Of a DNA stretch of 64,000 nucleotides, positions 26,847 through 58,456 are shown piece by piece. The stretch is from Saccharopolyspora elongata (GTDB lineage: Bacteria; Actinomycetota; Actinomycetes; Mycobacteriales; Pseudonocardiaceae). Positions within the stretch are counted from its first letter, which is position 1; every line of letters starts with the position of its first letter. The notes under the pieces were generated by a model that ran no database searches, was not told where the DNA came from, and saw only the letters and a list, made by a program, of their open reading frames with translations. The stretch covers positions 1-64,000 of the forward strand of contig NZ_SMKW01000006.1 of assembly GCF_004348985.1 (NCBI RefSeq), in the 5' to 3' direction. Made by a program: the position numbers and the translations under genes.

Positions 26847-27476
26847 GTGCCCGGCGCCGAGGAGTTCGTCCCGTCCAGGGCCCGGTTGCCCGGCCTGAGG
26901 AAAGCGGTTCAGGACTGCCGGGGCTGCGGCCTCTACCGCGACGCGACCCAGGCCGTTTTCGGTGCCGGCCCGGAGACGGCGAAGGTCGTGGTGATCGGCG
27001 AGCAACCCGGCGACCAGGAAGACCGGCGGGGCGTGCCGTTCGTCGGGCCTGCGGGCGGGATGCTGGACCGCGCGCTGGCGGAGGCCGGCATCCGGCGCGA
27101 CGACGTCTACGTCACCAACACCACCAAGCACTTCAAGTTCGAGCGCACCAGCGGGAAGCGGCGAATCCACCGGAAGCCGTCCCAGACCGAGGTCAACGCG
27201 TGCCGCCCGTGGCTGGATGCCGAACTGCGGGTCGTCGCGCCTCGGCTGGTGATCTGCCTCGGGGCGACCGCCGCGCAGGCGATGCTGGGCACGTCGTTCC
27301 GCATCACGAAGGAACGCGGCATCGTGCTGGACCTCCCGCACCGCGACGCCCACGTGCTCGCCACGATCCACCCGTCGGCGATCCTCCGCTCCGACGACAG
27401 GGAGGCGATGTACCAGGGGTTCGTCGCGGACCTGCGGGTGGCGGCGCGGACCCTGCGTTCACTCGATGCCGGGTAG
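26847..27476 (+). CDS. udgX: UdgX-type uracil-DNA glycosylase
   Basis: This iron-sulfur uracil-DNA glycosylase of the UdgX class has 209 residues. GEQPGDQEDRRGVPFVGPAG is motif A, and the UdgX-specific loop KRRIH is at 104-108; His-108 corresponds to the residue that in mycobacterial UdgX becomes covalently linked to the abasic DNA. CRGCG (24-28) supplies two FeS cysteines. HPSAILR is motif B. It starts at GTG 26847, 4 bp after the NADH dehydrogenase stop, and overlaps the end of the convergent ligase gene by 18 bp. Confidence 0.93.
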   Translation: MPGAEEFVPSRARLPGLRKAVQDCRGCGLYRDATQAVFGAGPETAKVVVIGEQPGDQEDRRGVPFVGPAGGMLDRALAEAGIRRDDVYVTNTTKHFKFERTSGKRRIHRKPSQTEVNACRPWLDAELRVVAPRLVICLGATAAQAMLGTSFRITKERGIVLDLPHRDAHVLATIHPSAILRSDDREAMYQGFVADLRVAARTLRSLDAG

Positions 27477-28793
27477 CGGGCTGACCCCGTGCTCCCACCG
27501 CACCAGGCGCTGCGCCTTGCCGGTGGCGACCCGCGGCACGTGGTCGAGCACCCGGACGATGCACGAGATGTCGAGCCGCCCGAGCAGCGCGGCCGCCAGC
27601 TCGCGCGCCAGGAGCTCGGTGTCGCCGTTCGGATCCCGCGGCTCGACCGCGACCCGCAGCTCAGGGCGCGACCGGTCCCGGCGGTCCTCGACGATCAGGT
27701 AGTGCGGCGCCACCCGTCGATCGGCCAGCAGCACGGCCTCGATCTCCGACGGGAACACGTTGACACCGCGGATGACCACCATGTCGTCGGTGCGCCCCAG
27801 CACCCGGCTCATCCGGCGCAGCGTCCGCGGCGAACCGGGGGCGGGCCCGCTCAGCGACGCCACATCGCCGGTCCGGTAGCGCAGCAGCGGGGTGCCGGAC
27901 TTCGTCAACGTCGTGAACACCAGCTCGCCGACTTCGCCGTCGGGCAGCGGCTCGTCGTCCGGGCCGACGACCTCGGGGAAGAAGTGGTCCTCGGCGATGT
28001 TCAGCAAGCCCCCGGAGTCCAGCGACTCGCAAGCGACGCCCGGCCCGATCACCTCGGTCAGCCCGTAGATGTTGAGCGCCCGCAACCCCAGGAGCCCCTC
28101 GATGCTCTGCCGCATCTCCTCGGTCCAGGGCTCGGCCCCGAACAAGCCCACCCGCAGCGACAGCTGATCGGCGGTGATCCCGGTCGAAGCGAGCGCCTCG
28201 CCGAGGTAGGTCGCGTACGACGGTGTGCAGCACAGCACATCAGGACGCAGATCGAGCAACAACCGCAGCTGCCGATCGGTCGCGCCACTGGACACCGGGA
28301 GCACGGTCGCGCCCAGCCGCGTCGCCCCGTGATGGACGCCGAGCCCGCCGGTGAACAGGCCGTACCCGTAGGCGCAGTGCACGACGCTGCGCCGCGTCAC
28401 GCCGGCGCCGCCCAGCGCCCGGGCCATGACCTGCGTCCACACCTCGATGTCATGCGCGGTGTAGGGAACCAGGGTCGGCCGGCCCATCGTGCCGGACGTG
28501 CCGTGCACGCAGACGATGTCGTCCTCGGCCGCCGCGCGAAGCCCGAACGGGTAGTGATCCCAGAAGTCCTGCTTCGAGACGAGCGGCAACCGGTGCAGGT
28601 CTTCGAGCCGCACGTCGGAGCCGGCCGAGACGCCGCTCTCCCGAAGTCGCCCGGCCTGCAGGCCCCCGGCGGCCAACAGGCGGTCGACCAACTGCCGCAA
28701 CCGTCGTTCCTGCAGCTCACGGCGTTGCTCGGGGGTCACGCCCTCGGCCTCGGGAGCCACCAGCGGAGGATGCACGCGTTGTGCTGTCGCCAC
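27459..28793 (-). CDS. Phenylacetate-CoA ligase-like AMP-binding enzyme
   Basis: This adenylate-forming acyl/aryl-CoA ligase of the PaaK class has about 444 residues. The phosphate loop is VHGTSGTMGRPTLVPYT, AEPW/LNIYGLTEVIGPG are the adenine-binding motifs, and PLLRYRTGDVASL and GRTDDMVVIRGVNVFPSEIE are the core hinge motifs; the C-terminal swinging domain follows. I chose the GTG at 28793; the frame is open further upstream but that part looks unlike the family. No other phenylacetate genes are nearby, so the acid substrate is unknown. Confidence 0.85.
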   Translation of the reverse strand: MATAQRVHPPLVAPEAEGVTPEQRRELQERRLRQLVDRLLAAGGLQAGRLRESGVSAGSDVRLEDLHRLPLVSKQDFWDHYPFGLRAAAEDDIVCVHGTSGTMGRPTLVPYTAHDIEVWTQVMARALGGAGVTRRSVVHCAYGYGLFTGGLGVHHGATRLGATVLPVSSGATDRQLRLLLDLRPDVLCCTPSYATYLGEALASTGITADQLSLRVGLFGAEPWTEEMRQSIEGLLGLRALNIYGLTEVIGPGVACESLDSGGLLNIAEDHFFPEVVGPDDEPLPDGEVGELVFTTLTKSGTPLLRYRTGDVASLSGPAPGSPRTLRRMSRVLGRTDDMVVIRGVNVFPSEIEAVLLADRRVAPHYLIVEDRRDRSRPELRVAVEPRDPNGDTELLARELAAALLGRLDISCIVRVLDHVPRVATGKAQRLVRWEHGVSPLPGIE

Positions 28794-28941
28794 GCCCCAC
28801 GGTGTAGCAGCTCGACCGAGCCCGTGGGTAGATCCAACAGGGGGGACCCCCCTGAAAACCCCTCCGGAGCCTGTTGTACTGTTATGACACACGAGATGAG
28901 CGGGGCGGAAACGAACCGAACACCTCGGGAAAATAGAACAA

Positions 28942-33792: not shown

Positions 33793-33849
33793 GTGTCAGG
33801 GGTGGCGTCAGGGCTGTGACCGATCGGTGTCAGGTCTGCCGGTGATCGT
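33793..33849 (+). promoter_or_regulatory. SARP-type heptad array A
   Basis: The heptads are GTGTCAG (33793), GCGTCAG (33805), GTGACCG (33816) and GTGTCAG (33827), with starts 12, 11 and 11 bp apart. GATCGT at 33844-33849, 10 bp after the last heptad, is the probable -10. It lies upstream of the DUF4097/peptidase operon. The same layout is found at 37237 and 42170. Confidence 0.75.
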
Positions 33850-33889
33850 GGTTTCCATGACAGCCACGACTCCTCGGGAGGGCACCGCC

Positions 33890-34720
33890 ATGCAGACCTT
33901 CGACACCCCCAGCCCGATCTCCGCGACCGTTGACATCACCTTCGGGAACATCCGGTTCGTCGCCGGCGATCGTTCCGACACCGTCGTCGAGGTTCGGCCG
34001 GTCGACCCGTCGTGGGAGCTCGACGTCAAGGCCGCCGATCAGACCGACATCGAGTTCGCCAACGGGAAGCTGGTGGTCAAGCAGCCGAAGCTGCGCCACC
34101 TGTGGACCACCAAGTACGGCACGGTGGAGGTGCTGGTCGAGCTGCCGACCGGGTCGGACGTGCGGGGTGACACCGCGAATGGCGGGTACCTCGTCGAGGG
34201 CGCGGTCGGCTCGTGCCAGCTGAAGACCCCCACCGGGGACATCCAGGTCGAGCAGGCCACCGGCGCGCGGTTGAGGACCACCGCCGGCAAGGTCAGCGTG
34301 GACCGCGTGACCGGCCAGGCCGACGTCAGCGGGAACGGGGAGATCCGGCTCCGCCAGGTCGGCGGCGGCGCGGTGGTCAAGAACGTCGGCGGTGACATCT
34401 GGGTCGGCGAGGTCGCCGGCGACCTGCGGGTCAGCTCGGCCAACGGCGCCATCACCGTCGACGTGGCGCGTGCCGAGGTCGACGCCAAGACCGCCTGCGG
34501 CGACATCCGCGTCGGCGAGCTCGGCAGCGGCGCGGTCGACCTGTACACCCCCACCGGCGTGGTGGAGGTCGGCGTTCCCCAGAGCACCGCTGTCCGCCTG
34601 GATGCGCACACCTCGGCCGGCCGGGTTCGCAACGACCTGCCGGCATCCGAGCAGTCCGACCGAACCGTCAAGGTGCGCGCCCGCAGCCACGGTGGCGACA
34701 TCATCGTCCGCCGCGCCTGA
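33890..34720 (+). CDS. DUF4097-family beta-helix protein
   Basis: This 276-residue protein consists of short beta repeats (GDIQV, GKVSV, GEIRL, GDIWV, GDLRV, GAITV, GDIRV) that predict a right-handed beta-helix as in DUF4097 adhesin-like proteins. There is no signal peptide, so a cytoplasmic role is likely. ATG at 33890 has GGGAGG 8 nt upstream and aligns with the start of a paralogue at 56199 (MSTFDTPEPISATIDV). A SARP-type promoter lies upstream and an S9 peptidase gene follows by 85 bp. No precise function is known. Confidence 0.85.
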   Translation: MQTFDTPSPISATVDITFGNIRFVAGDRSDTVVEVRPVDPSWELDVKAADQTDIEFANGKLVVKQPKLRHLWTTKYGTVEVLVELPTGSDVRGDTANGGYLVEGAVGSCQLKTPTGDIQVEQATGARLRTTAGKVSVDRVTGQADVSGNGEIRLRQVGGGAVVKNVGGDIWVGEVAGDLRVSSANGAITVDVARAEVDAKTACGDIRVGELGSGAVDLYTPTGVVEVGVPQSTAVRLDAHTSAGRVRNDLPASEQSDRTVKVRARSHGGDIIVRRA

Positions 34721-34805
34721 CTCCCTCGCGCCCCTGCATCCCTGCCGTGATGGCACCGCCGTGGCATCGCCATGCCCGAAATCGACACCGAAAAGGACAG
34801 AACAG

Positions 34806-37082
34806 ATGACCACCACCCGGGATTACCAGGCCGCGGAGCAACTCCTCCGCCGAATGGCCCGCCCTGGCGAGCTCGTCGTCGGCGACAAGATCAGGCCGCA
34901 GTGGATCGACGGGGGAGACCGTTTCTGGTACGGGGTGAGCAACGGGGTCGGCAAGCGGTTCGTGCTGGTCGACCCGGCGGCGGGCACCCGCGAGCCGGCC
35001 TTCGACCACCCCCGGCTCGCCGCCGCGCTGGCCGCGGCCTCCGGGCAGCAGGTCGACCCCGAGGCGTTGCCGTTCCGGGCCATCGAGCCGAGCGGGAACG
35101 CCGTGGAGTTCGACGCGTTCGGCGAGCATTGGCGCTGCCTCCTGGACAGCTACGCCTGCGAGCGGGCCGAGGGCGCGCCGCCGGGCAACCCGCTGGAGGT
35201 GCCGTCACCCGACAAGAAGTTCGCGGTGTCCCAGCGGGGGCACGACCTGTGGGCGCGCTCCCTTTCCGATGGCCGCGAGTGGGCGCTGACCACCGACGGC
35301 GAGCCCGCCTACCAGTACGGTTCCGGCCCGGACTGCACGCGCAACCCCACCCTGCTGCGCAAGTTCGGCCTGCCGCACCTGCCGCCGGCCGTGGCCTGGT
35401 CGCCCGACTCGACGCGCGTGCTGGCGCATCGGACCGATGAGCGCGGCGTCCGGCAGACCCACTTGGTGGAGGCCAGGCCCGCCGACGGCGGCGCCCCGGT
35501 GCTGCGCACCCAGCGGTACGCCTACGCCGGGGACGAGAACGTGCCGCGGGCCGAACTGGTCGTGCTGGACGTCGCCGAGGGCACCGTGGTCCGCGCGCAG
35601 GCCGAGCCGCTGCTCATGACGCAGCTGTCGCCGATCATGATCAAGTGGGCTTGGTGGGCGGGCGACGGCTCGGCGGTGTACTACCTCGGCCAGCCCCGCG
35701 ACCTGCACACGCTCACCCTGCACCGGCTGGACCCGGCCACCGGTGCGGTCACCACCGTGCTCAGCGAGACCGGGGCCACCCGCGTGGAGCCGAACCAGTG
35801 GATGACCGGGGAGCCGATCGTGCGGGTGCTGGCCGACGAGGTGCTGTGGTACTCGCAGCGGGACGGCTGGGGTCACCTGTACCGGTACGACCTGCACACC
35901 GGCGCTCTGCTCGGGCAGGTCACCTCCGGGCAGTGGGCGGTGCGGCAGATCCTGCACGTCGACGAGGCCGAGCGGGTGGTGTACTTCACCGCCTCCGGGC
36001 TGGTCGACGAGGACCCGTACCGGCGCACGGTGTGCCGGGCCAACCTGGACGGCACCGGCTTCGCCAAGGTCACCGACGACGGGCTGGACCACATCGTCAC
36101 GGCGCCGGACACCATGGCGTACTTCATCGACTCCGCGTCCACTGTCGACACCCCGCCGGTGTCCAGCGTCCGCGACTGGACCGGTCGGGTGCTGGTCGAG
36201 TTGGAGCGCGCCGACATCGGCAAGCTCACCGCCATCGGCTGGACGCCGCCGGAACGGTTCCGCGTCAAGGCGGCCGACGGGGTGACGGACATCTACGGCG
36301 TGCTGTACCGGCCGAGGGGGTTCGACCCCGCTCAGCGCTACCCGGTGGTGGACAGCGTCTATCCAGGCCCGCACCTCACCCGGGTCGACCCGTGCTTCGA
36401 CCCCGGCGGGATGGGCGCCGACGCGGAACCCATCGCGGCGCTGGGCTTCGTGGTGGTCGCGGTCGACGGGCGGGGCGCCCCGGGGCGGAGCAAGGCCTTC
36501 CACGACGCCTCCTACGGCCATTTGGCCGACGCGGGCTGCCTGGCCGACCACGTCGGGGCTCTGCGGCAGCTGGCGGAAACCCGGCCGTGGATGGACCTGG
36601 ACCGGGTGGGCGCGTTCGGCCACTCCGGAGGCGGGTTCGCCACCGTGCGGGCGATGCTGGACTTCCCCGGGGTCTACAAGGCCGGCGTCGCCCTCGCCGG
36701 CTCGCACGACCCGCGCTACTTCACCCTGGGCTACGCGGAGGCCTACGACGGCGCGGACAACCCGGAGGCATGGGCTCGCGCGTCCAATGTGGACATCGCC
36801 GATCGGTTGGCGGGCAAGCTGCTGCTCATCCACGGCGAGATGGACGACCAGGTCCACCCGGCTCACACGCTGCGGCTGGCCGACCGGCTCATCGCCGCCG
36901 GCAAGGACTTCGAGCTGCTCATCGTGCCCGGGGCCGAGCACCTGTTCATCGACTGCCTGCAATACGTCCGCACGCGCGGCTGGGACTTCCTGGTGCGCGA
37001 GCTGCTGGGCACGCAGCCGCCCGCCTACCGTCCCGCCCCCATCTCCATCGATCCCGAGTTGCTCGGCGAGCTCTTCGCCTGA
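34806..37082 (+). CDS. S9-family prolyl oligopeptidase / dipeptidyl peptidase IV-like
   Basis: This 758-residue serine peptidase has a seven-bladed propeller in residues about 60-480 and an alpha/beta hydrolase domain in about 500-740. The nucleophile is in FGHSGGGFAT (Ser near 607), the Asp in HGEMDDQVHP (near 681) and the His in GAEHLF (near 712). No signal peptide is seen, so it acts on cytoplasmic peptides. ATG at 34806. It follows the DUF4097 gene under the same SARP-type promoter; a strong terminator ends the unit. Confidence 0.92.
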   Translation: MTTTRDYQAAEQLLRRMARPGELVVGDKIRPQWIDGGDRFWYGVSNGVGKRFVLVDPAAGTREPAFDHPRLAAALAAASGQQVDPEALPFRAIEPSGNAVEFDAFGEHWRCLLDSYACERAEGAPPGNPLEVPSPDKKFAVSQRGHDLWARSLSDGREWALTTDGEPAYQYGSGPDCTRNPTLLRKFGLPHLPPAVAWSPDSTRVLAHRTDERGVRQTHLVEARPADGGAPVLRTQRYAYAGDENVPRAELVVLDVAEGTVVRAQAEPLLMTQLSPIMIKWAWWAGDGSAVYYLGQPRDLHTLTLHRLDPATGAVTTVLSETGATRVEPNQWMTGEPIVRVLADEVLWYSQRDGWGHLYRYDLHTGALLGQVTSGQWAVRQILHVDEAERVVYFTASGLVDEDPYRRTVCRANLDGTGFAKVTDDGLDHIVTAPDTMAYFIDSASTVDTPPVSSVRDWTGRVLVELERADIGKLTAIGWTPPERFRVKAADGVTDIYGVLYRPRGFDPAQRYPVVDSVYPGPHLTRVDPCFDPGGMGADAEPIAALGFVVVAVDGRGAPGRSKAFHDASYGHLADAGCLADHVGALRQLAETRPWMDLDRVGAFGHSGGGFATVRAMLDFPGVYKAGVALAGSHDPRYFTLGYAEAYDGADNPEAWARASNVDIADRLAGKLLLIHGEMDDQVHPAHTLRLADRLIAAGKDFELLIVPGAEHLFIDCLQYVRTRGWDFLVRELLGTQPPAYRPAPISIDPELLGELFA

Positions 37083-37153
37083 GTGCCACACCGAAGACGA
37101 AAGCCCGATGGCTGCGCAACTACGGCGCAGGTCTTCCGGGCCACATGCGCGGA

Positions 37154-37192
37154 CACCGGGCCGAGCAGGCAGATCGCCTGCTCGGCCCGGTG
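37154..37192. terminator. Terminator hairpin of the peptidase operon
   Basis: A perfect 17-bp stem (CACCGGGCCGAGCAGGC and complement) encloses AGATC, 72 bp after the peptidase stop. No T-tract. Confidence 0.75.
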
Positions 37193-37236
37193 GTCGTAGG
37201 GCGTAGCTGTCGGCGGATCAAACGGGCGCACACGCC

Positions 37237-37293
37237 GTGTCAGAACCCGTGTCAGGTCGAGGGCAGGCCGGTGTCAGGTCGGCCGGTGACAGT
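37237..37293 (+). promoter_or_regulatory. SARP-type heptad array B
   Basis: The heptads are GTGTCAG (37237), GTGTCAG (37249), AGGGCAG (37260) and GTGTCAG (37271), spacing 12, 11 and 11 bp. GACAGT at 37288-37293, 10 bp after the last heptad, is the -10 candidate. It precedes the ABC exporter genes. Confidence 0.75.
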
Positions 37294-37299
37294 GATCGC

Positions 37300-38241
37300 A
37301 TGACGGATTCAGCGATCACGGCTTCCGGGCTGCGGAAGTCCTACCAGGACAAGATCGTGCTCGACGGCATCGATCTGAACGTCCGTGCGGGCACGGTTTT
37401 CTCCCTGCTCGGACCCAATGGGGCGGGCAAGACCACGACGGTGAACGTGCTGACCACGTTGGTGAAGGCCGACGGCGGGACGGTCCACGTGGCCGGGCAC
37501 GACCTCGCGACCGAGGCCAAGGCGGTGCGCGCGGCGATCGGGGTCACCGGCCAGTTCGCGGCGGTGGACGAGCTGCTGACGGGGCAGGAGAACCTGCAGC
37601 TGATGGTGGACCTGAACCAGGCCCCCGCCAACGGCGGCAAGCGGATCGTCGCAGAGCTCCTGGAACGCTTCGATCTGGTCGAGTCGGCGCAGAAGCCCGC
37701 GTCGGCCTATTCCGGGGGCATGCGCCGGAAGCTCGACCTGGCGATGACGCTCGTCGGCAACCCGCGGATCATCTTCCTGGACGAGCCGACGACGGGTCTG
37801 GACCCGCGCAGCCGTCGCACGATGTGGTCGATCATCCGCGAGCTGGTGGCCGATGGCGTGACCATCTTCCTCACCACCCAGTACCTCGAGGAAGCCGACC
37901 AGCTCGCCGACCGGATCGCGGTGCTCGACCAGGGCCGCCTCGTCGCCCAGGGCACTCCCGACGACCTCAAGCGCCAGATTCCCGGCACGCACGTCCGGCT
38001 CCGGTTCACCACCGTCGCCGAACTCGACGCGGCCGCGCGGATCATCGCCGGCTCCACGCGGGACGACGAGGCGCTGACCCTGCGGGTTCCCAGCGACGGC
38101 GGGACGAAGTCGTTGCGGGCCCTGCTGGACAGGCTCGACGAGCACTCGCTCAGCGCCGAAGCCTTCACCGTGCACACGCCGGACCTCGATGACGTTTTCC
38201 TCGCCCTCACGGGCCACACCACGGAGGTGGTCGCGGAATGA
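37300..38241 (+). CDS. DrrA-like ABC exporter ATPase
   Basis: This is the ATPase of a drug- or antibiotic-type exporter, 313 residues. Walker A LLGPNGAGKTTT, Q-loop VTGQFAAVDELLTG, signature YSGGMRRKLDLA, Walker B RIIFLDEPTTGLDP and the DrrA-type C-terminal extension (TVHTPDLDDVFLALTGH) are all visible. ATG at 37300 sits just after the heptad array, so the leader is very short. The permease gene overlaps its end by ATGA. Confidence 0.92.
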   Translation: MTDSAITASGLRKSYQDKIVLDGIDLNVRAGTVFSLLGPNGAGKTTTVNVLTTLVKADGGTVHVAGHDLATEAKAVRAAIGVTGQFAAVDELLTGQENLQLMVDLNQAPANGGKRIVAELLERFDLVESAQKPASAYSGGMRRKLDLAMTLVGNPRIIFLDEPTTGLDPRSRRTMWSIIRELVADGVTIFLTTQYLEEADQLADRIAVLDQGRLVAQGTPDDLKRQIPGTHVRLRFTTVAELDAAARIIAGSTRDDEALTLRVPSDGGTKSLRALLDRLDEHSLSAEAFTVHTPDLDDVFLALTGHTTEVVAE

Positions 38242-38981
38242 AGTCCCATTCGATGGTGATGTTGCGCCGCAACTTCAAGCACATCGCCCGGAATCCGACC
38301 TCGGTGTTCAACGCGGTCCTGATGCCGGTCGTGGTCATGCTGATGTTCGTGTACATGTTCGGTGATGCCTTCAGCGTCGGCGTCGACTACATCGACTACG
38401 CGACGCCGGGCATGCTCCTGCTGGCCGTCTGCTACGGGCTGGGGTCCGTGGCGACGTCGGTGAACTCCGACATGACCAAGGGCATCATCAACCGCTTCAA
38501 GGTCATGGACGTCCCCCGCGGTGCGGTGCTGACCGGTCACGTCGTTGCCAGCCTGCTGACCAACCTGGTCGCCATCGCGGCGATCATCGGAGTCGCCTTC
38601 CTGCTGGGATTCAGCCCGTCGGCGAGCCTCCTCGACTGGCTCGGCGTGATCGGTGTCGTCGCGCTGCTCGGTTTCTCGACCGGCTGGCTGACGGTCGCCT
38701 TGGGATTGGCGGCGAAGTCCCCGGAAACGGCGGGTCTGGCCTCGGTGCCGCTGGTCATGCTCCCGTTCTTCAGCAGCGCGATCGTGCCGGCGGAGAAGAT
38801 GGGGCCCGGCCTCCGGGAATTCGCGGAGTACCAGCCCTTCACGCCGATCATCGAAACCCTGCGCGGGCTGCTCGACGGCGCGCCGGCCACCGGCGACATG
38901 ATCGCCGCCCTCGCCTGGTGCGTCGGGATCGCCGTCGTCGGGTACCTGTGGGCGTCCGCCACGTTCAACAAGCGAGCGTGA
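38238..38981 (+). CDS. DrrB-like ABC exporter permease
   Basis: This 247-residue ABC-2 type permease has six membrane segments, starting MVMLRRNFKHIARNPTSVFN and including TPGMLLLAVCYGLGSVATSV and the LVMLPFFSSAIVPAEKMGPG segment typical of DrrB. It overlaps the ATPase gene by 4 bp, so the two are co-translated as an exporter. Its last 17 bp overlap the convergent SARP gene. The cargo is unknown. Confidence 0.92.
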   Translation: MKSHSMVMLRRNFKHIARNPTSVFNAVLMPVVVMLMFVYMFGDAFSVGVDYIDYATPGMLLLAVCYGLGSVATSVNSDMTKGIINRFKVMDVPRGAVLTGHVVASLLTNLVAIAAIIGVAFLLGFSPSASLLDWLGVIGVVALLGFSTGWLTVALGLAAKSPETAGLASVPLVMLPFFSSAIVPAEKMGPGLREFAEYQPFTPIIETLRGLLDGAPATGDMIAALAWCVGIAVVGYLWASATFNKRA

Positions 38982-41900
38982 CCGCGACCAACTCGCGCCA
39001 GCTCGCCTGCGCGCCTTCCTGCGTCGCCTCGGTGAACCTCGCGTCACCGAGGCGACTTCGCGCGGCCTGCTCGATCCGGCCCACATCCGGTTGGGAACGA
39101 TCCGGCAGACCGCGCACGCCGGCGCTCGCCGCGAGCAGGCGCGCGGCCTGCTCGTGCTCTTCCTGGCGCAGCGCCAGGTCCGCGATCCCCACGATCACCT
39201 GCGCGATCCCGAGTGGGGTCCCCGCCTCGGACGCCGCCTGGACGGCTGCGGCGCGGTGTTCGCGGACCTCGTCGAGATCCTCGGCGAGGTAACCGAGCAG
39301 GTCGTGCCTCATCGCGCGGATGTTCGCCCGCTCGGCGTTATCACCCAGCATCGCCGTCGCGACGTCGAGTTGCAGGCGTGCCTGCTCGGCGTCACCGCTC
39401 CAGCGGGCGAACTGCGCCTTCGACAGGGCCAGCTCGGTCAGCGCCCCCGGCCAGGCGACCCGCTCCGCGGACCGCTGTGCCTCTGCCATGGCAGCCGCGC
39501 TCGACTCCTCGTCCCCCGCCAGCCAGTACAACTGAGCCTGCCGCGACCGCATCGGCACCACGTCCTCGGCGGCGCCGACCTCGGAGACGACCGCGATCGC
39601 CTGCTCGTAGTACGTGCACGCAGTGGCGAACTCGCCGCGCACGGCGATTCGATCCGCCAGCTCGGTCAAGGCGAACGAAATCCCCCACCGTTCGCCCAGC
39701 GCGCGGAACTCGGTGAGCGCCGTCTCGAGATGAGCATCCGCATCCCGGTCGCCGTGGCCGAGCATGATCCGCATCTTGCCCAGCTGCAGCCGGGCAAGAG
39801 CGCGCGCCCAGGGATCCTCGTCGGTGAGCAGCGGTTCCCACGCCGGAACGTACGCGTCCGGCGTTTGCACCAGGCGTTCCAGCGCGGCGACGAGCCCTAC
39901 CGCCGGGTGATGGCTCTGGACGCGTCGGTTGATCTCGTACACCTCGTGGATCCAGTCCGCCGCCTGGAACTGGTCGCTCTCCCGCCCGGAGGTCATGAAC
40001 CCCGTGGCAAGCGCGTACACGACGACCCGGATCTCATCGGCCACCTCGCCGGGCATGGCGATCGCCGCCATGATCAGCTCGTTGCCCTCGACCTTGTGCC
40101 CGCCGAGCCACCAGTACCAGCCGGCGGTAGCGGCGAGCCGCATCGCCCCGTCCGCCTCGCCGGCGGCGAGCGCACCGCGCATCGCGGCGATGATGTTGTC
40201 GTGCTCGGCCTCGAGCGTGGCGAGCCATTCCAATTGCTCGGCGCGGCGAAGGTGCGGCTCCGCGATTCCGGTGAGTTCGGTGAAGTACGCGAGATGCGCA
40301 CGGCGCGTCAGATCCGATTCCCCCGCCTCCGCGAGGCGCTGCTCGGCGTACTCCTTGATCGTGCCGAGCATCCGGTAGCGCGTCGCCCGGTCGCCCGCGG
40401 TGACCACCAGCGACTTCTCGGTCAGCGCGGTCAGCAGCTCGAGCACCTCGCCAGGCTCGACCGCATTGCCGGCGCAGACCTGCTCGGCCGCTTCCAGGCT
40501 CGCGCCACCGGCGAACACCGAGAGCCTGCACAGGACCAATCGTTCGGCGTCGGTGAGCAGCTCCCAGCTCCAGTCGATCACCGCGCGCAGCGTCCGGTGC
40601 CGGGGCAGCGCGGTCCGGCTGCCGCCGGTCAGCAGGCGGAACCGGTCGTCGAGCCGATTGGCGAGCTGGTCGAGGGACATGGTGCGCAACCTGGCCGCGG
40701 CGAGTTCGATCGCCAGCGGCATCCCGTCCAGTGCCTGGCAAATGCGCGCCATGGTCGACATCGTGCGGGCGTCGATCGCGAGGTCCTTGCGCACCGCGCC
40801 GGCTCGGTCCCGCAGCAGCCGGATGGCCGGAGCGGACTCGATCTCCCCGGGGTCGGCGTCTTCCGCGGGGAGGACCAACGGCGCGACCTGCCACAGCGCC
40901 TCACCGGTGATGCCGAGGGATTCCCTGCTCGTCGCGAGGATCCGCAGCCGCCGGCACTCTCCGAGCACCCGGTGGGCGAATGCCGCGGCGGATTCGATCA
41001 CGTGCTCGCAGTTGTCCAGGATCAGCAACATCTCCCGCTCGCGGAGCGCGGCGATGACCCGATCCGTCGGTTCCGCGTCCGGTGCGTCGCCGAGCAGCGC
41101 ATCCCGCAGTTTGAGCGCGGCGAGCGTCGCTTGCGCCACGTCACCGTCGGCGCCGATGGGCGCGAGTTCGACCAGCCAGGCCCCGTCCGGCAGGTCGCCG
41201 AGCAGCGTGCGCGCGGTTTCCGCGGCCAGCCTGGTCTTCCCCGAGCCGCCCGGCCCGATCAGGGTGGTGAGCCGGTGTTCGGTGCTGAGTTCGCGAACCG
41301 CGGCGACGTCGGCGTCCTTGCCGACGTAGCTGGTCAGCTCGGCACGCAGGTTGGTCTTCCGGCCCTCCTCCGGCCGTCCCAACTCGCCCCGCAGCAGCGC
41401 GACGTGCAATCCGGAGAGCTCCGGTGAGGGGTCGACGCCCAGCTCGTCGGCCAGGGTTTCCCTCGTGCGCTCGTACACGAGCAGCGCCTCGGTGTCGCGA
41501 CCGGTCGCGACGAGGGCGCGCATCAACGCGGCGACGAGCCGTTCCCGCACCGGATGCGCGGCCACCAGGTCGGTCAGTTCCGTGACCAGCTCCGCACCGT
41601 GGCCGAGGCTGATCTCCGCATCGAACCGATCCTCCATGGCTGCCAGGCGCAGCCCTTCGAGCCGGGTGACCGCCGCGTCGAACGCTGCGCTGTCGGCCAG
41701 ACCGACGTCCTGCATGGCCGCACCGCGCCACAGCGCCAGGGCCTCGCGCAGCCGCCGCACCCCCCGTGGATCCGCATCGTCGCGGGCGTGGGCGACGAGG
41801 TGTTCGAACCGCACGGCGTCGACGGCGTCGGGTTCCACCCTCAACCGGTAGCCGTTCGGCTGTCCCTCGACCGACCCTTCCGGTAGCGCCTTCCGCAGCC

Positions 41901-42105
41901 GGGAAACCAAGCGCTGCAAGGCATTCGCCGCGTCGGCGGGCGGGTTCTCACCCCAGATCCAGTCGACGAGCGTCGACTTCGGGACCACGCGACCCGGTTC
42001 GAGCGCGAGCGCGACCAACAGCCCGCGCAACCGGACGCCCGGCACGTCGGCTAGGACGCCGTCATCCGTGCGAACCTCGAATGAGCCAAGCATCCCGATC
42101 TGCAC
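38965..42105 (-). CDS. Large SARP-family regulator with ATPase and TPR domains
   Basis: This 1046-residue transcriptional activator has the AfsR/SARP layout: OmpR-type winged helix (about 1-92), BTAD (about 95-245), a P-loop ATPase (LIGPGGSGKTRLAAE near 280-294, Walker B EMLLILDNCEHV, ILATSRESLG) and C-terminal TPR-like helices from about 600. SARPs bind direct heptad repeats next to -10 boxes. Three such arrays (33793, 37237, 42170) surround this gene. CAAAAT lies exactly 7 nt before the GTG at 42105, suggesting a leaderless mRNA. It is divergent from the P450 gene and shares its intergenic region. Confidence 0.93.
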   Translation of the reverse strand: MQIGMLGSFEVRTDDGVLADVPGVRLRGLLVALALEPGRVVPKSTLVDWIWGENPPADAANALQRLVSRLRKALPEGSVEGQPNGYRLRVEPDAVDAVRFEHLVAHARDDADPRGVRRLREALALWRGAAMQDVGLADSAAFDAAVTRLEGLRLAAMEDRFDAEISLGHGAELVTELTDLVAAHPVRERLVAALMRALVATGRDTEALLVYERTRETLADELGVDPSPELSGLHVALLRGELGRPEEGRKTNLRAELTSYVGKDADVAAVRELSTEHRLTTLIGPGGSGKTRLAAETARTLLGDLPDGAWLVELAPIGADGDVAQATLAALKLRDALLGDAPDAEPTDRVIAALREREMLLILDNCEHVIESAAAFAHRVLGECRRLRILATSRESLGITGEALWQVAPLVLPAEDADPGEIESAPAIRLLRDRAGAVRKDLAIDARTMSTMARICQALDGMPLAIELAAARLRTMSLDQLANRLDDRFRLLTGGSRTALPRHRTLRAVIDWSWELLTDAERLVLCRLSVFAGGASLEAAEQVCAGNAVEPGEVLELLTALTEKSLVVTAGDRATRYRMLGTIKEYAEQRLAEAGESDLTRRAHLAYFTELTGIAEPHLRRAEQLEWLATLEAEHDNIIAAMRGALAAGEADGAMRLAATAGWYWWLGGHKVEGNELIMAAIAMPGEVADEIRVVVYALATGFMTSGRESDQFQAADWIHEVYEINRRVQSHHPAVGLVAALERLVQTPDAYVPAWEPLLTDEDPWARALARLQLGKMRIMLGHGDRDADAHLETALTEFRALGERWGISFALTELADRIAVRGEFATACTYYEQAIAVVSEVGAAEDVVPMRSRQAQLYWLAGDEESSAAAMAEAQRSAERVAWPGALTELALSKAQFARWSGDAEQARLQLDVATAMLGDNAERANIRAMRHDLLGYLAEDLDEVREHRAAAVQAASEAGTPLGIAQVIVGIADLALRQEEHEQAARLLAASAGVRGLPDRSQPDVGRIEQAARSRLGDARFTEATQEGAQASWRELVAVTLAC

Positions 42106-42169
42106 CTGGCTGATTTTGCCATGGGCGACGGGCCGGCCTCCGCCTGTTGACGCGACGCAGGAGACGTTT

Positions 42170-42226
42170 CCGTCATGGTCGGTGTCAGAGCCGTGTCAGG
42201 CGCATGTCAGGTCCGGCGGCGATCGT
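42170..42226 (+). promoter_or_regulatory. SARP-type heptad array C
   Basis: The heptads are CCGTCAT (42170), GTGTCAG (42182), GTGTCAG (42193) and ATGTCAG (42204), spacing 12, 11 and 11 bp; GATCGT at 42221-42226 is the -10 candidate. From there the sequence is also similar to array A (GATCGTGG...GCCACGA). It lies between the SARP gene and the P450 gene. Confidence 0.75.
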
Positions 42227-46296: not shown

Positions 46297-48456
46297 CTAG
46301 CCCTCGTCGAGGGCCGACAACTTCTCCTGGACCTTCGCGACGTCGAGCATCCGCAGCTGCGATCGGTAGAGCTCGAGCGCCTGCTGCCAGAGCTCCCGGG
46401 CACGTGCCCGCCGCCCCAGCGCCACATGCGCTTCCGCGAGTCGGTCGAGAGCGCTGGGCTCCCAGTACTCGTTGCCCAATGCGCGGAACACCTCGATCGC
46501 TTCGCGGTAGTAGTCGATCGCCGCGAGGTGATCGCCCGTGTTGTGGGCGATGTACCCGAGACCGTCGAGCGCGTGGGCTTCCCCCTCCTGGTAGCCGGAA
46601 CTGCGATGCAGCGCGAGCGCTTCCGCACAGCGATCTCGTGCCTCGTCGTAGCGCCCCAGCTGCGCGCTGAACCACCCGACCTGGCTCAGCGAGGTGGCCG
46701 TCCGGGTCGGATCCGCGAGCCGCCGGTAGATCTCGAGTGCGCGTTGCGCGTGTTCCAACGCATGCCCGTTCTCGCCGTGAGACTCCCAGGCCAGCGCGAG
46801 AACCTGGTGGGTGTGGGCGGCACCCCGTTCGTCGCCGGTCGCTTCCGACGACGAGAGGGCGTGCTGCAGGTGGTGCACCGCGTCGTCGTGGCGGCCGGCC
46901 CTGCTGTACGCGTCGCCCAGATTCCGGTGGGCCAGCACCATTTTCCCGGCGTCGCCCAGCTGCTCGGCCGCGACGAGCGCGGACCGCCAGTTGATCAGGT
47001 TCTCGTGGATGTAGGCCCGGCGCCGGTGGTAGGTGTCCAGCGCCTCGACGAGGTTCCACGCCCGGACGTACCAGCCGTGATCGACCGAGTTCCGCACCGC
47101 GATGAGCAGATTGCCGTGCTCGGCGGCCAACCATTCTGCTGATTCGGAAGAATCGGCGGCCGTCAGCGGAAGGCTGCCGCGCTCGGGAGGCTCCAAGACG
47201 AGTTCCCGGGTGCGGGAGTACAGCTGCCGGGAACAGTCGTAGGCCGTGTGGAGGTAGAAGTCCACCAGCCGCTCGAGCGCCCGGTCCCATTCCTCGCCGG
47301 CTTCGAGCTGTTCAGCCTCTTCGGCGGCGTAGAGCTTGACCAGGTCGTGCATCCGGTAACGACCAGAGGCGCTTGCGTGCACGAGGTTCGCGCGTTCCAG
47401 ATCGCGCAGCAGGCCAAGCGTTCGGCGGATCGGGAGCCCAATGAGGCTGGCAGCGGCGACCGAGCTCAGATCGGCGCCCGGCACGAGCCCGAGCAGCTTG
47501 AAGACCTGCGACTGCGGCTGCGAAAGCGCCTGGGCAGACCAGGAGAACACGGCACGCAGGTCGACCCCGGGGCCGCCCGCATCGAGAGCGTCGAGCCGAC
47601 TGGATTCCTCGCGGAGCTCCCCGGCGAGCACATCCAGCGGAATCTCCGGTTGCAGGGAGATCCTGGCCGCCACGATGCCGAGCGCCAGCGGCAGGCCGCC
47701 GCAGTGGTCCAGCAGGTTCGAGACCGCCTCCGGATGCCGATCGACGCGTTCCCGGCCGAGGTGACCGACGAGCAGGTCGTGCGAGTCCGATTCGCTGAGC
47801 ACGTCCACCGACAGCGGATGAGCGCCGTACACCGCGACGAGCCCGGCGAGCTGGTAGCGACTCGTGACCAGCACGGCGCAACCGGAACTTCCGGGTATCA
47901 GCGGCAGCACCTGGTCTGCGTCGCGGGCGTTGTCCAGGACGACGAGCATCCTGCGCCCGGCCATCAGCGTCCGGTACAGGGCCACCTGCGCTTCCGGATC
48001 GGCGGGCAGATTGCTCGGCGAAACGCCGAATGCCTCCAGGAACGTGCGCACCGCCGTCGACGGGTGCACCGGCGTCCCGGAAGGGTCGAATCCGCGGAGG
48101 TTCACGTACAGCTGGCCGTCGGGGAACCGGTCCGCGTTCTGGTGCGCCCAGTGAATCGCGAGGTAGCTCTTGCCGATTCCGCCGCTGCCGCTGATCGCCG
48201 TGATCATCACCGTGCTGTCGTCCGCGTGGGAGCGCAGTATCTCGGTGAGCTGCACCAGCTCGCGGACCCGACCAGTGAAGAGCCGCGGTGCCGCCGGGAG
48301 TTGGCGGGGCAGAGCGGCCGGCCGGTCGGAACCGCCCAGGTTGATGTCACCGGTAATGGTGCCGGCCTGGATGACGTGACCGCCGACCAGCGCGGTCATT
48401 TCGTTGCTCGCGGATTGCATCTGCGGTGCCGGGTTCTCATCGGACGCCATCGTCAC
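46297..48456 (-). CDS. STAND NTPase with TPR repeats (AfsR-like, without DNA-binding domain)
   Basis: This 719-residue protein starts with a short segment VGGHVIQAGTITGDINLGG seen in actinobacterial NB-ARC proteins, then the NTPase: P-loop GSGGIGKS at 90-97, Walker B MLVVLDNARD, sensor VLVTSRYQL, GLPLALG and the MHD-type motif YRMHDLVKLYAAEEAE. The C-terminal 300 residues are tetratricopeptide repeats. No BTAD, toxin or nuclease domain is visible, so it may act as a sensor or scaffold. It heads a four-gene unit with HAD, RpiB-like and kinase-like proteins. Confidence 0.88.
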   Translation of the reverse strand: MTMASDENPAPQMQSASNEMTALVGGHVIQAGTITGDINLGGSDRPAALPRQLPAAPRLFTGRVRELVQLTEILRSHADDSTVMITAISGSGGIGKSYLAIHWAHQNADRFPDGQLYVNLRGFDPSGTPVHPSTAVRTFLEAFGVSPSNLPADPEAQVALYRTLMAGRRMLVVLDNARDADQVLPLIPGSSGCAVLVTSRYQLAGLVAVYGAHPLSVDVLSESDSHDLLVGHLGRERVDRHPEAVSNLLDHCGGLPLALGIVAARISLQPEIPLDVLAGELREESSRLDALDAGGPGVDLRAVFSWSAQALSQPQSQVFKLLGLVPGADLSSVAAASLIGLPIRRTLGLLRDLERANLVHASASGRYRMHDLVKLYAAEEAEQLEAGEEWDRALERLVDFYLHTAYDCSRQLYSRTRELVLEPPERGSLPLTAADSSESAEWLAAEHGNLLIAVRNSVDHGWYVRAWNLVEALDTYHRRRAYIHENLINWRSALVAAEQLGDAGKMVLAHRNLGDAYSRAGRHDDAVHHLQHALSSSEATGDERGAAHTHQVLALAWESHGENGHALEHAQRALEIYRRLADPTRTATSLSQVGWFSAQLGRYDEARDRCAEALALHRSSGYQEGEAHALDGLGYIAHNTGDHLAAIDYYREAIEVFRALGNEYWEPSALDRLAEAHVALGRRARARELWQQALELYRSQLRMLDVAKVQEKLSALDEG

Positions 48457-55344: not shown

Positions 55345-55580
55345 AACCGGATGCGGCCGACGAAGTGCGCCCGTCGTCGGCGTCCGTGCGGCCAACCGCC
55401 GGCGCCTGACGCCGCGCCCGATGATGGGCCCGGGTGACCAGCGCGCACCGGGTGTTCACCTGGGGCCTGATGCCACTGGGTGCCGCGCCGCGCCTGCGCG
55501 GCGTCAGCCAGCCGAAACGCTGATCGTTCTCGGTCGCGGACCCGGGCCCGTGCCGCGCCGAGTGCCATGGATGGTTGCGC

Positions 55581-55610
55581 TGGTGCCACGTTGGTGCCAT
55601 GATGGCGCCA
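55581..55610 (+). promoter_or_regulatory. Tandem TGGYGCCA operators at 11-bp spacing
   Basis: TGGTGCCA (55581), TGGTGCCA (55592) and TGGCGCCA (55603) are each 11 bp apart, one helical turn. The last overlaps the A of the RHH gene's ATG. GAGTGCCA at 55560 may be a weaker fourth. This is typical of cooperative ribbon-helix-helix autoregulation. Confidence 0.6.
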
Positions 55611-56122
55611 TGGATATTGGGGTGTATGTCGACGGCATCCGGCGGGAGCTGGCCGTCGCCGCCGAAGTCGGTGGCGACGATGCCCGGGAGCTCGCCGAGC
55701 GGCTCACGACGCCATTGGAGTCCGCCCTCCGGCTGACGCTGCTGGACGCGTTGTCCTCGGCTGCCGACGAGATCACCCGCGAACTCGCGCCGGGATCCGT
55801 GGACCTGCGGTTCCGCAGCGGGGAACCGGAATTCGTCGTGACGGCGCCACCGGTGGCCCACGGCGCGGCGGCTGACGAAGCCGAGAGCGCGCCGGCGGAG
55901 GTCCGGCCGGTCCTGGAGGCCGACGAAGGCGCCATGTCGCGGATCAACGTCCGGATGCCCGAAAGGCTCAAGGCCCGCGTCGAGGAAGCCGCCGGGCGAG
56001 AAGGCTTGTCGGTCAACGCGTGGCTCGTCCGGGCCGCCGCCGCTGCGGTGGAACCCGTCGAGCGGCCCGCCGGGCGCGGCACCGGCCGGCGCGGGCAGCG
56101 CTACACCGGGTGGGCGCGCTAG
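55610..56122 (+). CDS. Ribbon-helix-helix (HicB/Arc-like) protein
   Basis: The 170-residue protein has an N-terminal domain of about 100 residues (VYVDGIRRELAVAAEVGGDD) of unknown function and a C-terminal RHH DNA-binding domain, SRINVRMPERLKARVEEAAG followed by REGLSVNAWLVRAAAAAVEP. No toxin gene is adjacent; instead a DUF4097 gene follows by 76 bp, a pairing I recall from other actinomycetes. Tandem operators overlap the ATG at 55610, so it probably represses itself and the DUF4097 gene. Confidence 0.8.
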   Translation: MDIGVYVDGIRRELAVAAEVGGDDARELAERLTTPLESALRLTLLDALSSAADEITRELAPGSVDLRFRSGEPEFVVTAPPVAHGAAADEAESAPAEVRPVLEADEGAMSRINVRMPERLKARVEEAAGREGLSVNAWLVRAAAAAVEPVERPAGRGTGRRGQRYTGWAR

Positions 56123-56198
56123 CGGCGCGCTCCGACCCGTACACACCACACGTCCTACCAGCGAGGACGCTCACCGAACACGATCTGAGGGGACAGCC

Positions 56199-57058
56199 AT
56201 GTCAACTTTCGACACTCCGGAGCCGATTTCCGCCACGATCGACGTCGTCCTGGGCGACGTGCGGATCGTCGCCGCCGACCGGGCCGACACCGTCGTCGAC
56301 GTGCGGCCGACCGACCCGTCCCGGAAGGCCGACGTGCGGGCGGTCGAATTGACCCGCGTCGAGTTCTCCGATGGCGAGCTGCTGGTCAAGACGGAGAAGC
56401 GGTGGCGGCACTACGGCCCGCGCGACGGCGGATCGGTCGAGGTGCTGATCGAGCTGCCGACCGGGTCGCAGGTGCGCGGCGAGTCGGCGCAGGGGGACTT
56501 CCGCGGCGAGGGACGGCTCGGCGAGTGCCGGTTGCGGACCTCGGTCGGCGCCATCCGGCTCGACGCCACCGGCCCGCTGAACGCGAAGACCGCCACCGGC
56601 GCGGTCACCGTCGACCACGTGGCGGGCCCGGCCGAGGCCGCCACCGGGTCCGGCGAGCTGCGGATCAGGCGGGTCGACGGTGCCGGGGTGTTCAAGAACT
56701 CCAACGGGGAGACCCGGATCGGCGAGATCGGCGGTGAAGCGCGGCTGAGCGCGGCCAACGGCGGCATCACCGTCGAGAAGGCGCGCGACTCCGTCCGGGC
56801 CAAGACCGCCAACGGCGACATCCGGATCGGCGAAGTCGCGCGCGGCACGGTCGAGCTGGACGTGTCGGTGGGGAGCTGGAGGTCGGTATCCGCGAAGGGA
56901 CCGCCGCGTACCTGGACCTGAACACCACGATCGGTCGCGTGCACAACTCGCTGGACAGCGTCGACGCGCCGGGAGACGCGGAGGAGACCGTCGAGGTCCG
57001 CGCCAGCACCGTGAGCGGTGACATCATCGTGCGCCGCTCCTCGCTCGTCGACGAATGA
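56199..57058 (+). pseudogene. DUF4097 paralogue with a C-terminal frameshift
   Basis: MSTFDTPEPISATIDVVLGD starts a beta-helix protein closely similar to that at 33890. Repeats such as GDVRI, GAIRL, GAVTV, GELRI, GETRI, GGITV and GDIRI continue to residue about 228. At a GGGG run near 56884 the frame shifts, ending at 56921. In the +1-corrected frame the homologous tail (TIGRVHNSLDSV ... GDIIVRRSSLVDE) reads on to the TGA at 57058. Either a true mutation or a one-base sequence error. Confidence 0.75.
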
Positions 57059-57262
57059 TGGGCGGATAGCCCCGAAAAGCACCACGCCGCCGTACTTTCC
57101 GGCGGTGACCTTCGCCAGGACCGAGGTCTTGCGCCACGATTCCGGCCCTTGACGGGCCGATGTTCACGCGGATGCGCTTCCTGCTGCCCTCGCTCCGGCC
57201 TGGTGCCGGTCCTGATCGGACGCACCTGTTTTTCCTTTTATCCCGACGAAAGGGAAATACCC

Positions 57263-58456
57263 GTGATAATCGATGCTGCCCGCATGGCGGTCGACCCGCA
57301 GCACTTCTGGCTGCGCGGAGAGAAACCGGCGAGCCCGGTCGACTTCGACGAAGAGCGAGGCGTGTGGAACGTCTACGGCCATCCGGAGACGGTCGAAATC
57401 CTCAGCGACCCGAAGACGTTCTCCTCCAACGTCGCGCGGCTCGTGCCGGTCGATCTCGACCCGGCCTTCCTGGAGGGCGACCTGACGCAGATGGACCCGC
57501 CGTTCCACCGCAAGCTGCGCCGGCTGGTCAGCCACGCGTTCACCCCGAAGATCGTGGCCGACCTCGAACCGCGGATCGCCGCGCTGACGCACGAACTGCT
57601 CGACGCGGTGGCCGATCGGGACCGGTTCGAGCTGGTCGCGGATCTCGCCTACCCGCTGCCGGTGATCGTCATCGCCGAACTGCTGGGCGTGCCCAGCAGC
57701 GACCGCGATCTCTTCCGGCAGTGGGTGGAGGAGCAGGTCGGCGGCGGCCAGCAGCTCTCGGTCGTCGACCAGGGCGAGGAGCAGCAGCGCGAACTGAACG
57801 CCGGGCTGGAAAGCTTCCGGAAGATTCTCGACTACTTCCTCGAGCACGCCGCGGAGCGGCGGCGGAACCCCCGCGAGGACCTGCTGACCCAGCTGGTGCA
57901 GGCGGAGGTCGACGGTGAACGCCTCACCGACAACGAGGTGGTGAACTTCGCCAACCTCCTGCTGGGCGCCGGGCACATCACCACCACCATGCTGCTGGGC
58001 AACACGGTGATGTGCCTGGACGCGCACCCGGAGCAGGCGGCGCGGGTGCGTGCGGACCGCGCGCTGGTGCCGGGCGCGATCGAGGAATCGCTGCGCCTGC
58101 TGACCCCGTTCGCGCTCACCTACCGGGCGACGATGACCGAGACGGAGGTCGGCGGCCGGCGGGTGCCCGCGGACCAGGTGCTCTCGGTATGGCTCGGGGC
58201 GGCCAACCGCGACGACCGGGTGTTCGCCGATCCGGAGGCCTTCGACCCGGCCCGCGACCCCAACCCGCACATCGCGTTCGGGCGCGGCATCCACTTCTGC
58301 CTGGGCGCGCCGCTGGCCCGGCTGGAGGGCCGGATCGCGATGAACATCCTGCTGGACCGCTTCCCGGCGCTGCGCACGGATCCGGCGAACCCGCCGGTCC
58401 TCATGCCGGGCACGGACATGATCGGCGCGACTTCGCTGCCCTTGCTCACCGAATAA
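57263..58456 (+). CDS. Cytochrome P450 with atypical I-helix
   Basis: This P450 monooxygenase has 397 residues. The heme loop FGRGIHFCLGAPLARLEG has its Cys at 346 and ExxR is in IEESLRLL. The I-helix reads GAGHITTTMLL (near 234-244): the acidic residue usual at AGxE/DT is Ile-238, which should alter proton delivery. The GTG at 57263 is chosen for AAGGGAAA upstream. It lies about 200 bp after the DUF4097 gene, echoing the P450 near the first DUF4097 copy. No SARP heptads are seen here. Confidence 0.9.
   Translation: MIIDAARMAVDPQHFWLRGEKPASPVDFDEERGVWNVYGHPETVEILSDPKTFSSNVARLVPVDLDPAFLEGDLTQMDPPFHRKLRRLVSHAFTPKIVADLEPRIAALTHELLDAVADRDRFELVADLAYPLPVIVIAELLGVPSSDRDLFRQWVEEQVGGGQQLSVVDQGEEQQRELNAGLESFRKILDYFLEHAAERRRNPREDLLTQLVQAEVDGERLTDNEVVNFANLLLGAGHITTTMLLGNTVMCLDAHPEQAARVRADRALVPGAIEESLRLLTPFALTYRATMTETEVGGRRVPADQVLSVWLGAANRDDRVFADPEAFDPARDPNPHIAFGRGIHFCLGAPLARLEGRIAMNILLDRFPALRTDPANPPVLMPGTDMIGATSLPLLTE

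Follow-up and report, generated by a model that had tools for sequence, protein, structure and literature searches.

The locus described here lies in a 64,000-nucleotide stretch of DNA from Saccharopolyspora elongata (assembly GCF_004348985.1, contig NZ_SMKW01000006.1, positions 1 to 64,000, forward strand), referred to as the window; its G+C content is 69.4%, and the host genome comprises 10.3 Mb in 277 contigs. A gene for a large regulator of the SARP family is accompanied by genes for a DUF4097 (toastrack) protein, a peptidase, an ABC exporter, and a cytochrome P450, and tandem arrays of GTGTCAG-like heptads precede the DUF4097, exporter, and P450 genes (Table 1). Gene calls throughout were made by a simple G+C frame rule.

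Table 1. Heptad arrays and genes at the SARP locus of the window
Feature	Position	Strand	Details
Array 1	33793-33849	+	heptads GTGTCAG, GCGTCAG, GTGACCG, GTGTCAG at 33793, 33805, 33816, 33827; 10-bp gap; -10-like GATCGT at 33844-33849
Array 2	37237-37293	+	heptads GTGTCAG, GTGTCAG, AGGGCAG, GTGTCAG at 37237, 37249, 37260, 37271; -10-like GACAGT at 37288-37293
Array 3	42182-42226	+	conserved heptads GTGTCAG, GTGTCAG, ATGTCAG at 42182, 42193, 42204 (11-11); -10-like GATCGT at 42221-42226; proposed first heptad CCGTCAT at 42170
DUF4097 (toastrack) gene	33890-34720	+	276 aa; PF13349 2e-09
S9 prolyl-oligopeptidase-family peptidase	34806-37082	+	758 aa; PF00930 2.3e-43, PF00326 9.2e-38
DrrA-type ABC exporter ATPase	37300-38241	+	TIGR01188
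ABC-2 permease, DrrB-like partner	38238-38981	+	PF01061 7.3e-22
Large SARP	38965-42105	-	1046 aa; Trans_reg_C, BTAD, NB-ARC/AAA-like region
Cytochrome P450	42258-43478	+	406 aa; closest solved structure CYP105AS1

The exporter ATPase belongs to the DrrA subfamily of daunorubicin resistance by model TIGR01188 (319.1 bits; cut-off 312.45), and its partner matches general ABC-2 permease models but not the DrrB subfamily model TIGR01247 (37.5 bits against a cut-off of 223.05). Among solved structures, CYP105AS1 is nearest to the P450 (PDB codes 4oqs and 4oqr; 2.8e-123); membership of the CYP105 family is set at over 40% identity to named members. The DUF4097 protein appears only weakly similar to the envelope-stress proteins LiaG and LiaX, the NCBIfam models of which it does not reach (30.4 against 285 and 26.2 against 350). 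An in-frame ATG at 33857, 7 bp past the -10-like hexamer, is an alternative leaderless start for its gene, with which the S9 peptidase gene is probably co-transcribed. The initial annotation had described a gene set without a biosynthetic core, and this is borne out: in 31 of the 57 called window open reading frames (ORFs) of at least 100 aa, including all those of at least 270 aa, Pfam detects no polyketide synthase, non-ribosomal peptide synthetase, or terpene-synthase domain. An AMP-binding enzyme is present at 27459-28892.

As the initial annotation had read from the sequence, the arrays starting at 33793, 37237, and 42170 share start-to-start steps of 12, 11, and 11 bp, with a GAnnGT hexamer exactly 10 bp past the last heptad. 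The third heptad is degenerate in array 1 (5/7) and array 2 (4/7), and the first of array 3 agrees at 4/7. The word TGTCAG is not over-represented in the window (14 observed, 22 expected), and eight of the 14 lie inside the three arrays. Among 150 four-heptad layouts scored in the window, only 12-11-11 gave two or more matches at 24/28 or better, and it gave three; none of 30 first-order Markov simulations contained any such match. The genome-wide test for random occurrence that had been suggested did not refute the pattern. The block TGTCAGGTCNGSCGGYGAYMGTG, which runs from the last heptad to the -10, is matched perfectly at exactly three places in the genome, all in this window. When three mismatches are allowed, six further matches appear against eight in the reversed-pattern control, which is background. 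With heptads 1, 2, and 4 as the pattern and 0-2 mismatches, the host genome yields four sites, three of them those of the window and the other close to a paralogous SARP. Adjacent GTGTCAG-like pairs at 11 bp with at most two mismatches are not enriched genome-wide (24 versus 25 in the control); therefore, what distinguishes these sites is the array as a whole. No further unlinked target emerged in the host genome, where the remaining candidates carry 2-3 mismatches, and a site on contig C204 before a 399-aa ORF with a FAD-like N-terminus was rejected as not above background.

The regulator has N-terminal Trans_reg_C (PF00486, 32.8 bits; cut-off 26.2) and BTAD (PF03704, 129.3 bits; cut-off 22.1) domains, the arrangement of the large class of the SARP family. 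The solved SARP domain of AfsR aligns with it at 4.5e-34, and in a phmmer comparison its residues 2-596 match AfsR 26-618, i.e. through the nucleotide-binding region of AfsR. A second stretch, matched to AfsR 807-955, is not significant, and the score against the AfsR equivalog model NF053617 is 164.4 bits for a cut-off of 1430. The AfsR contact residues W74, P79, and R94 are kept in all 88 orthologue rows and R92 in 87, Saccharopolyspora soli being represented by two rows (L038 and L131; L and G numbers denote loci and genomes of this study). At the position of T88, which touches a base in AfsR according to the available text of PMC10936776, arginine is found in 81 of these 88 rows, unlike AfsR, and in none of 19 paralogue rows (one paralogue, L030 = L040, is counted twice). 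This replacement is a plausible cause of the differing DNA word. A separate NB-ARC and TPR protein, in which no DNA-binding domain was detected, is encoded at 46297-48456 of the window, about 2.8 kb past the P450 gene.

The host genome holds 37 SARP matches. A paralogous group, about 41% identical, lies near another DrrA gene (L097, around 9215, and loci L023-L030); the promoter of that gene reads CTGTCAG-CTGTGCG-CTGTCAG at 11-11 with GATAGT 10 bp later, and in several genomes a weak word stands 12 bp upstream. The 12-11-11 exporter layout may therefore extend to other SARPs. After another paralogous SARP on host contig C137 (L043), a CTGTCAG 11-11 array near C137:50791-50819 accompanies an MFS transporter gene (ORF L043 3781-5268; PF07690 1.9e-59), a second pairing of SARP, array, and exporter.

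Within the genus, 9 of 22 genomes contain an orthologue of the window SARP, the other eight being 75-93% identical, and in all eight the P450 gene adjoins the SARP gene in divergent orientation. Each of the eight P450 promoters has an 11-11 set of three heptad-like words that all agree at 5/7 or better, and at most 3/7 agreement at the position of an upstream fourth word. The DUF4097-S9-DrrAB part is present at the SARP locus only in the host genome and in G018, where array 1 retains heptads 1, 2, and 4 together with an identical, still degenerate heptad 3. A search for three heptads in 11-11 spacing, one mismatch being allowed, was positive in all nine genomes with the orthologue and in none of the 13 without it; two of its 11 matches sit at a paralogous SARP. 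When both gaps were left free, the 22 genomes gave nine matches, seven of them with steps of exactly 12 and 22 bp (12/22), all seven in orthologue genomes.

The same spacing is found across actinobacteria. A contig scan gave at least 568 relatives among 594 stretches, and 80 loci were taken, with SARPs 69-84% identical and genera that include Nocardia, Micromonospora, Amycolatopsis, Kribbella, and Streptomyces. Among the 529 TGTCAG sites in these loci (1.79 Mb), same-strand distances of 11 bp occur 81 times, 12 bp 37 times, 22 bp 47 times, 23 bp 19 times, and 34 bp 14 times, while every other distance between 6 and 60 bp occurs at most three times (33 bp once) and the reversed word gives two pairs in total. 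SARP operators are marked by direct repeats in tandem with steps of 11 or 22 bp, which agrees with the proposal that the arrays would be SARP-type sites. At 55% identity or more, DrrA is found at 61 of the loci, DrrB at 64 (three short fragments), and P450 at 37, and the S9 peptidase at none of the 80. The gene set first proposed therefore needs trimming: DUF4097, DrrA, and P450 genes recur, but the S9 peptidase, present at the locus only in the host genome and G018, is a local addition. Full-length copies of the SARP also occur on Streptomyces plasmids of 1.0-1.2 Mb (PLSDB H1-H3, L166), which may help explain its spread.

Promoters were compared for homologues above identity limits of 60% (DrrA), 70% (P450), and 30% (DUF4097), with a gene match starting no later than residue 12 and at least 200 bp upstream. 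Locus L038 was left out as the same genome as L131, promoters over 85% identical were removed, and then those with a three-heptad score below 15/21 (3 DrrA, 7 P450, and 16 DUF4097). This left 56 anchored DrrA promoters (64 in all, 59 non-redundant) from 20 genera, one an unclassified metagenome-assembled genome, and 33 anchored P450 promoters (45 in all, 40 non-redundant) from 13 genera. Counted from the start of the last heptad, DrrA promoters have a heptad of at least 6/7 at 0 in 50 cases, at -11 in 39, at -22 in 53, and at -34 in 37 (40 at 5/7 or better), with one at -33 and none at -35. The -10 element stands at a fixed 10 bp after the 7-mer, and its A and T are invariant in all 56. The ATG lies at +29 or +30 in 54 of the 56 (+29 in the window), and because of this short distance the DrrA transcript would probably be leaderless. 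In Saccharopolyspora soli, a remnant of a DrrA-type promoter (two heptads, -10, and first codons) is seen at L131 13354 on the minus strand, equivalent to L038 8410 on the plus strand, where no DrrAB was found.

P450 promoters are built differently. Heptads of at least 6/7 stand at 0 in 29 of the 33, at -11 in 32, and at -22 in 29; at -34 none reaches 6/7 and one reaches 5/7, and at -33 the numbers are one and three. The ATG is mostly 54-55 bp downstream (25/33). By these counts the P450 site consists of three heptads at 11-11, and the first heptad CCGTCAT of the window P450 promoter, which is not conserved in P450 promoters, is probably a chance likeness. Consequently, the single four-heptad design that the initial annotation had assigned to all three promoters does not survive, and 12-11-11 belongs to the exporter promoters and part of the others. 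As a regulon layout it stands for DrrA and part of the DUF4097 promoters, for which it is supported as a real conserved arrangement, and falls for the P450 promoter.

It could be argued that the fourth, 12-bp-spaced heptad is a functionless by-product of repeat duplication or of the common descent of the DrrA promoter. Promoters travel with their genes, in 16 of the 56 DrrA promoters no fourth heptad is seen even when 5/7 is accepted, and duplicated arrays do exist, as in a Streptomyces DrrA promoter (L180, 14899, minus strand) with heptads at three successive 12-bp steps. However, the spacers of DrrA promoters have diverged to a mean pairwise identity of 0.48, as opposed to 0.80 for the heptads, yet the heptad at -34 is kept in 16 of 20 genera, and DUF4097, beta-lactamase-fold, and alpha/beta hydrolase genes have it upstream as well. 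This explanation is unlikely.

The distribution of the arrays follows that of the SARP. In 297 genomes of the family, the exact 12/22 pattern has 76 matches in 52 genomes, and the reversed control has none; a few of these matches are probably due to chance. An orthologue of the SARP (at least 65% identity) is present in 108 of the 297, and 51 of the 52 exact-array genomes hold one, as opposed to a match in only one of the 189 orthologue-free genomes (G273). The Fisher value for this association, 1e-25, overstates independence because the genomes are related. Leaving both gaps free gave matches in 143 of the 297 genomes, but also in the reversed control, so that the total is not evidence; among the matches listed (150 rows with 138 distinct parses, 49 combinations being possible), 47 are 12/22, followed by 16 at 11/22 and 12 at 12/24, many of these simple repeats. 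With these data, a coincidence of three arrays is hardly credible. Nothing speaks for it but the first P450 heptad of the window, and the unique matches of TGTCAGGTCNGSCGGYGAYMGTG, the spacing in 80 loci, the promoter counts, the simulations, and the exact 12/22 pattern against its control refute it by comparison.

The arrays could also be operators of a different regulator, whether a second SARP or a protein of the OmpR type that reads 11-bp repeats, as PhoP does, with this SARP a mere neighbour. The host genome has many SARP paralogues, some with TGTCAG-like arrays nearby, and the afsS site is common to PhoP and AfsR as described in the available part of a review (PMC10972967). This is nevertheless distinctly improbable, since the orthologue accompanies nearly all exact 12/22 genomes, including some whose array is remote from the SARP gene, and since SARP-like matches occur in all 22 genus genomes, yet the arrays track this orthologue. 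The claim that the 1046-aa SARP is the likely regulator is thus strengthened, as is its pairing with particular targets: of 119 arrays near SARP orthologues (window, eight genus loci, and the 80 loci, with Saccharopolyspora soli counted twice as L038 and L131), 109 head the three gene families of the window.

The genes behind the 119 arrays are 58 DrrA, 41 P450, 10 DUF4097, and 10 others. Unlinked arrays precede a DUF4097 homologue, and unlinked four-word arrays an alpha/beta hydrolase, in G001, G009, and G011, the only three of the 22 genus genomes with a close homologue of that hydrolase; in Nocardia xishanensis, a 78-80% homologue of it stands at the SARP locus behind a three-word array. 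Surroundings were also taken for 19 of the 47 listed 12/22 sites and for one 11/22 site (L236), some pairs being close relatives. Behind the 19 strict sites are six DUF4097 genes, four DrrA genes (one called from an inner start), seven genes for beta-lactamase-fold proteins, one for an alpha/beta hydrolase, and one for a PadR regulator. All six beta-lactamase-fold proteins scanned are PF00144, and the remaining one shares 97% identity with one of these six. In G009, a single ORF (L092 10587-12485) behind a 12-11-11 array fuses DUF4097 and PF00144 domains, families that are otherwise separate array targets. At 55421-58456 the window encodes, in this order, a HicB-like protein, a second DUF4097 protein (56199; 50% identical), and another P450; no heptad array lies upstream of this DUF4097 gene.

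Such a gene set might also confer self-resistance to, or tailor, a compound that the organism itself produces from another part of its genome, and not defend it against compounds from outside. The DrrA subfamily occurs in antibiotic clusters too; according to the parts of the literature available, so do CYP105-type enzymes (PMC8256718), and small SARPs lie mostly within clusters (PMC12224297). However, no synthase is among the array targets identified (not all neighbours of the 80 loci are annotated), and as many as 20 genera share the set, which makes this reading somewhat unlikely. CYP105 enzymes are described in the available text of PMC8256718 both in secondary metabolism and in the biotransformation of xenobiotics. 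The pump, the CYP105-like P450, the DUF4097 proteins, and the beta-lactamase-fold and alpha/beta hydrolases of relatives would be less suited to biosynthesis than to exporting and chemically modifying a compound that is toxic or acts as a signal.

Among the closest known systems is AfsR with its afs box in Streptomyces coelicolor. As given in the available text of PMC10936776, AfsR likewise begins with a SARP domain and then a nucleotide-binding region, through which the window SARP aligns, most of its DNA-contact residues are kept here, and its 11-bp direct repeats likewise overlap the -35 region before a weak -10. In that structure two protomers are bound side by side on the two 11-bp repeats, and both contact sigma region 4. 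In contrast to the two repeats of the afsS site, three or four are found here, with one 12-bp step that lies outside the usual description of SARP operators. The same text has 8 bp between the 3' repeat and the -10 element, compared with 10 bp after the 7-mer here, although the repeat end may be set differently. The three-heptad P450 promoters resemble the PimR operator of pimM, which is described in PMC5930380, as far as its text is available, as three heptamers with 4-nt spacers bound cooperatively. There, heptamer number and spacing matter, and an engineered fourth heptamer brought no substantial gain in production. PimR differs in being a SARP-LAL protein with a 10-bp step in its second operator, and '12 bp' does not occur in the text of that paper. 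The three-heptad sites of DnrI and ActII-ORF4, as summarised in the available part of PMC10972967, are similarly tandem and upstream of their targets but serve biosynthetic clusters, whereas here the targets are exporter, P450, DUF4097, and hydrolase genes. The word GTGTCAG appears in print for an actinomycete within a table of TetR-family sites. In the open-licence literature, no description was found of this SARP with an exporter and P450 set, or of a 12-bp SARP step, which is not proof of absence.

A proposed mode of action can be described as follows. It is likely that the locus forms a self-contained regulon in which a large AfsR-like SARP would activate a small export and modification set. 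A signal would presumably be sensed by its nucleotide-binding and C-terminal parts. The N-terminal DNA-binding and BTAD domains would then align on tandem CGTGTCAG words along one face of the DNA and bring the housekeeping RNA polymerase to the weak GAnnGT -10 box 10 bp downstream. At P450 promoters, protomers on three in-phase words (11-11) would suffice for activation. The DrrAB promoters, like some of the DUF4097 promoters, have one more word 12 bp upstream of these three, one base out of step, so that a fourth protomer would be turned by about 34 degrees, and protomers on four words, the first set back by 12 rather than 11 bp, may activate the exporter.

Several observations weigh against this scheme. 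The NB-ARC score of the SARP (21.1 bits) is below the cut-off of 23.5 and no TPR is found by Pfam, so that the sensor part is inferred. Paralogous SARPs too have TGTCAG-like arrays alongside; its use is therefore not confined to one SARP. No exact 12/22 array is found in 57 of the 108 orthologue genomes, although the pattern is strict and P450-only loci carry 11-11, while G273 has an array without the orthologue. G158 and G223 have matches that do not resemble the rest. Besides the 16 DrrA promoters without a fourth heptad, the DUF4097 promoters are mixed: among 27 non-redundant upstream regions, 16 have no passing array, and in the 11 anchored ones the fourth heptad stands at -34 in only five. 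Finally, promoters and genomes share descent, and the counts are not independent.

A broader and more tentative proposal is that this SARP, with a NOD-like sensor and usually one orthologue per genome, may stand at the centre of a regulon for chemical defence that is widespread in actinobacteria. Much as in inducible resistance, a foreign or envelope-damaging compound would call up the exporter, the P450, the toastrack proteins, and the hydrolases, and the array geometry would encode promoter classes, the displaced fourth heptad of exporters possibly setting a different activation threshold. Most of what is known of SARPs concerns the switching of antibiotic biosynthesis; the conserved large SARP of this locus appears tied to an export and modification set with no synthase among its targets, and a non-biosynthetic role in detoxification is predicted for it. 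The exact 12/22 TGTCAG array could serve as a regulon finder, as it marks a likely target. With 11-11 and 12-11-11 promoters beside one regulator, the family would offer a natural contrast for how protomer number and phase set activation.

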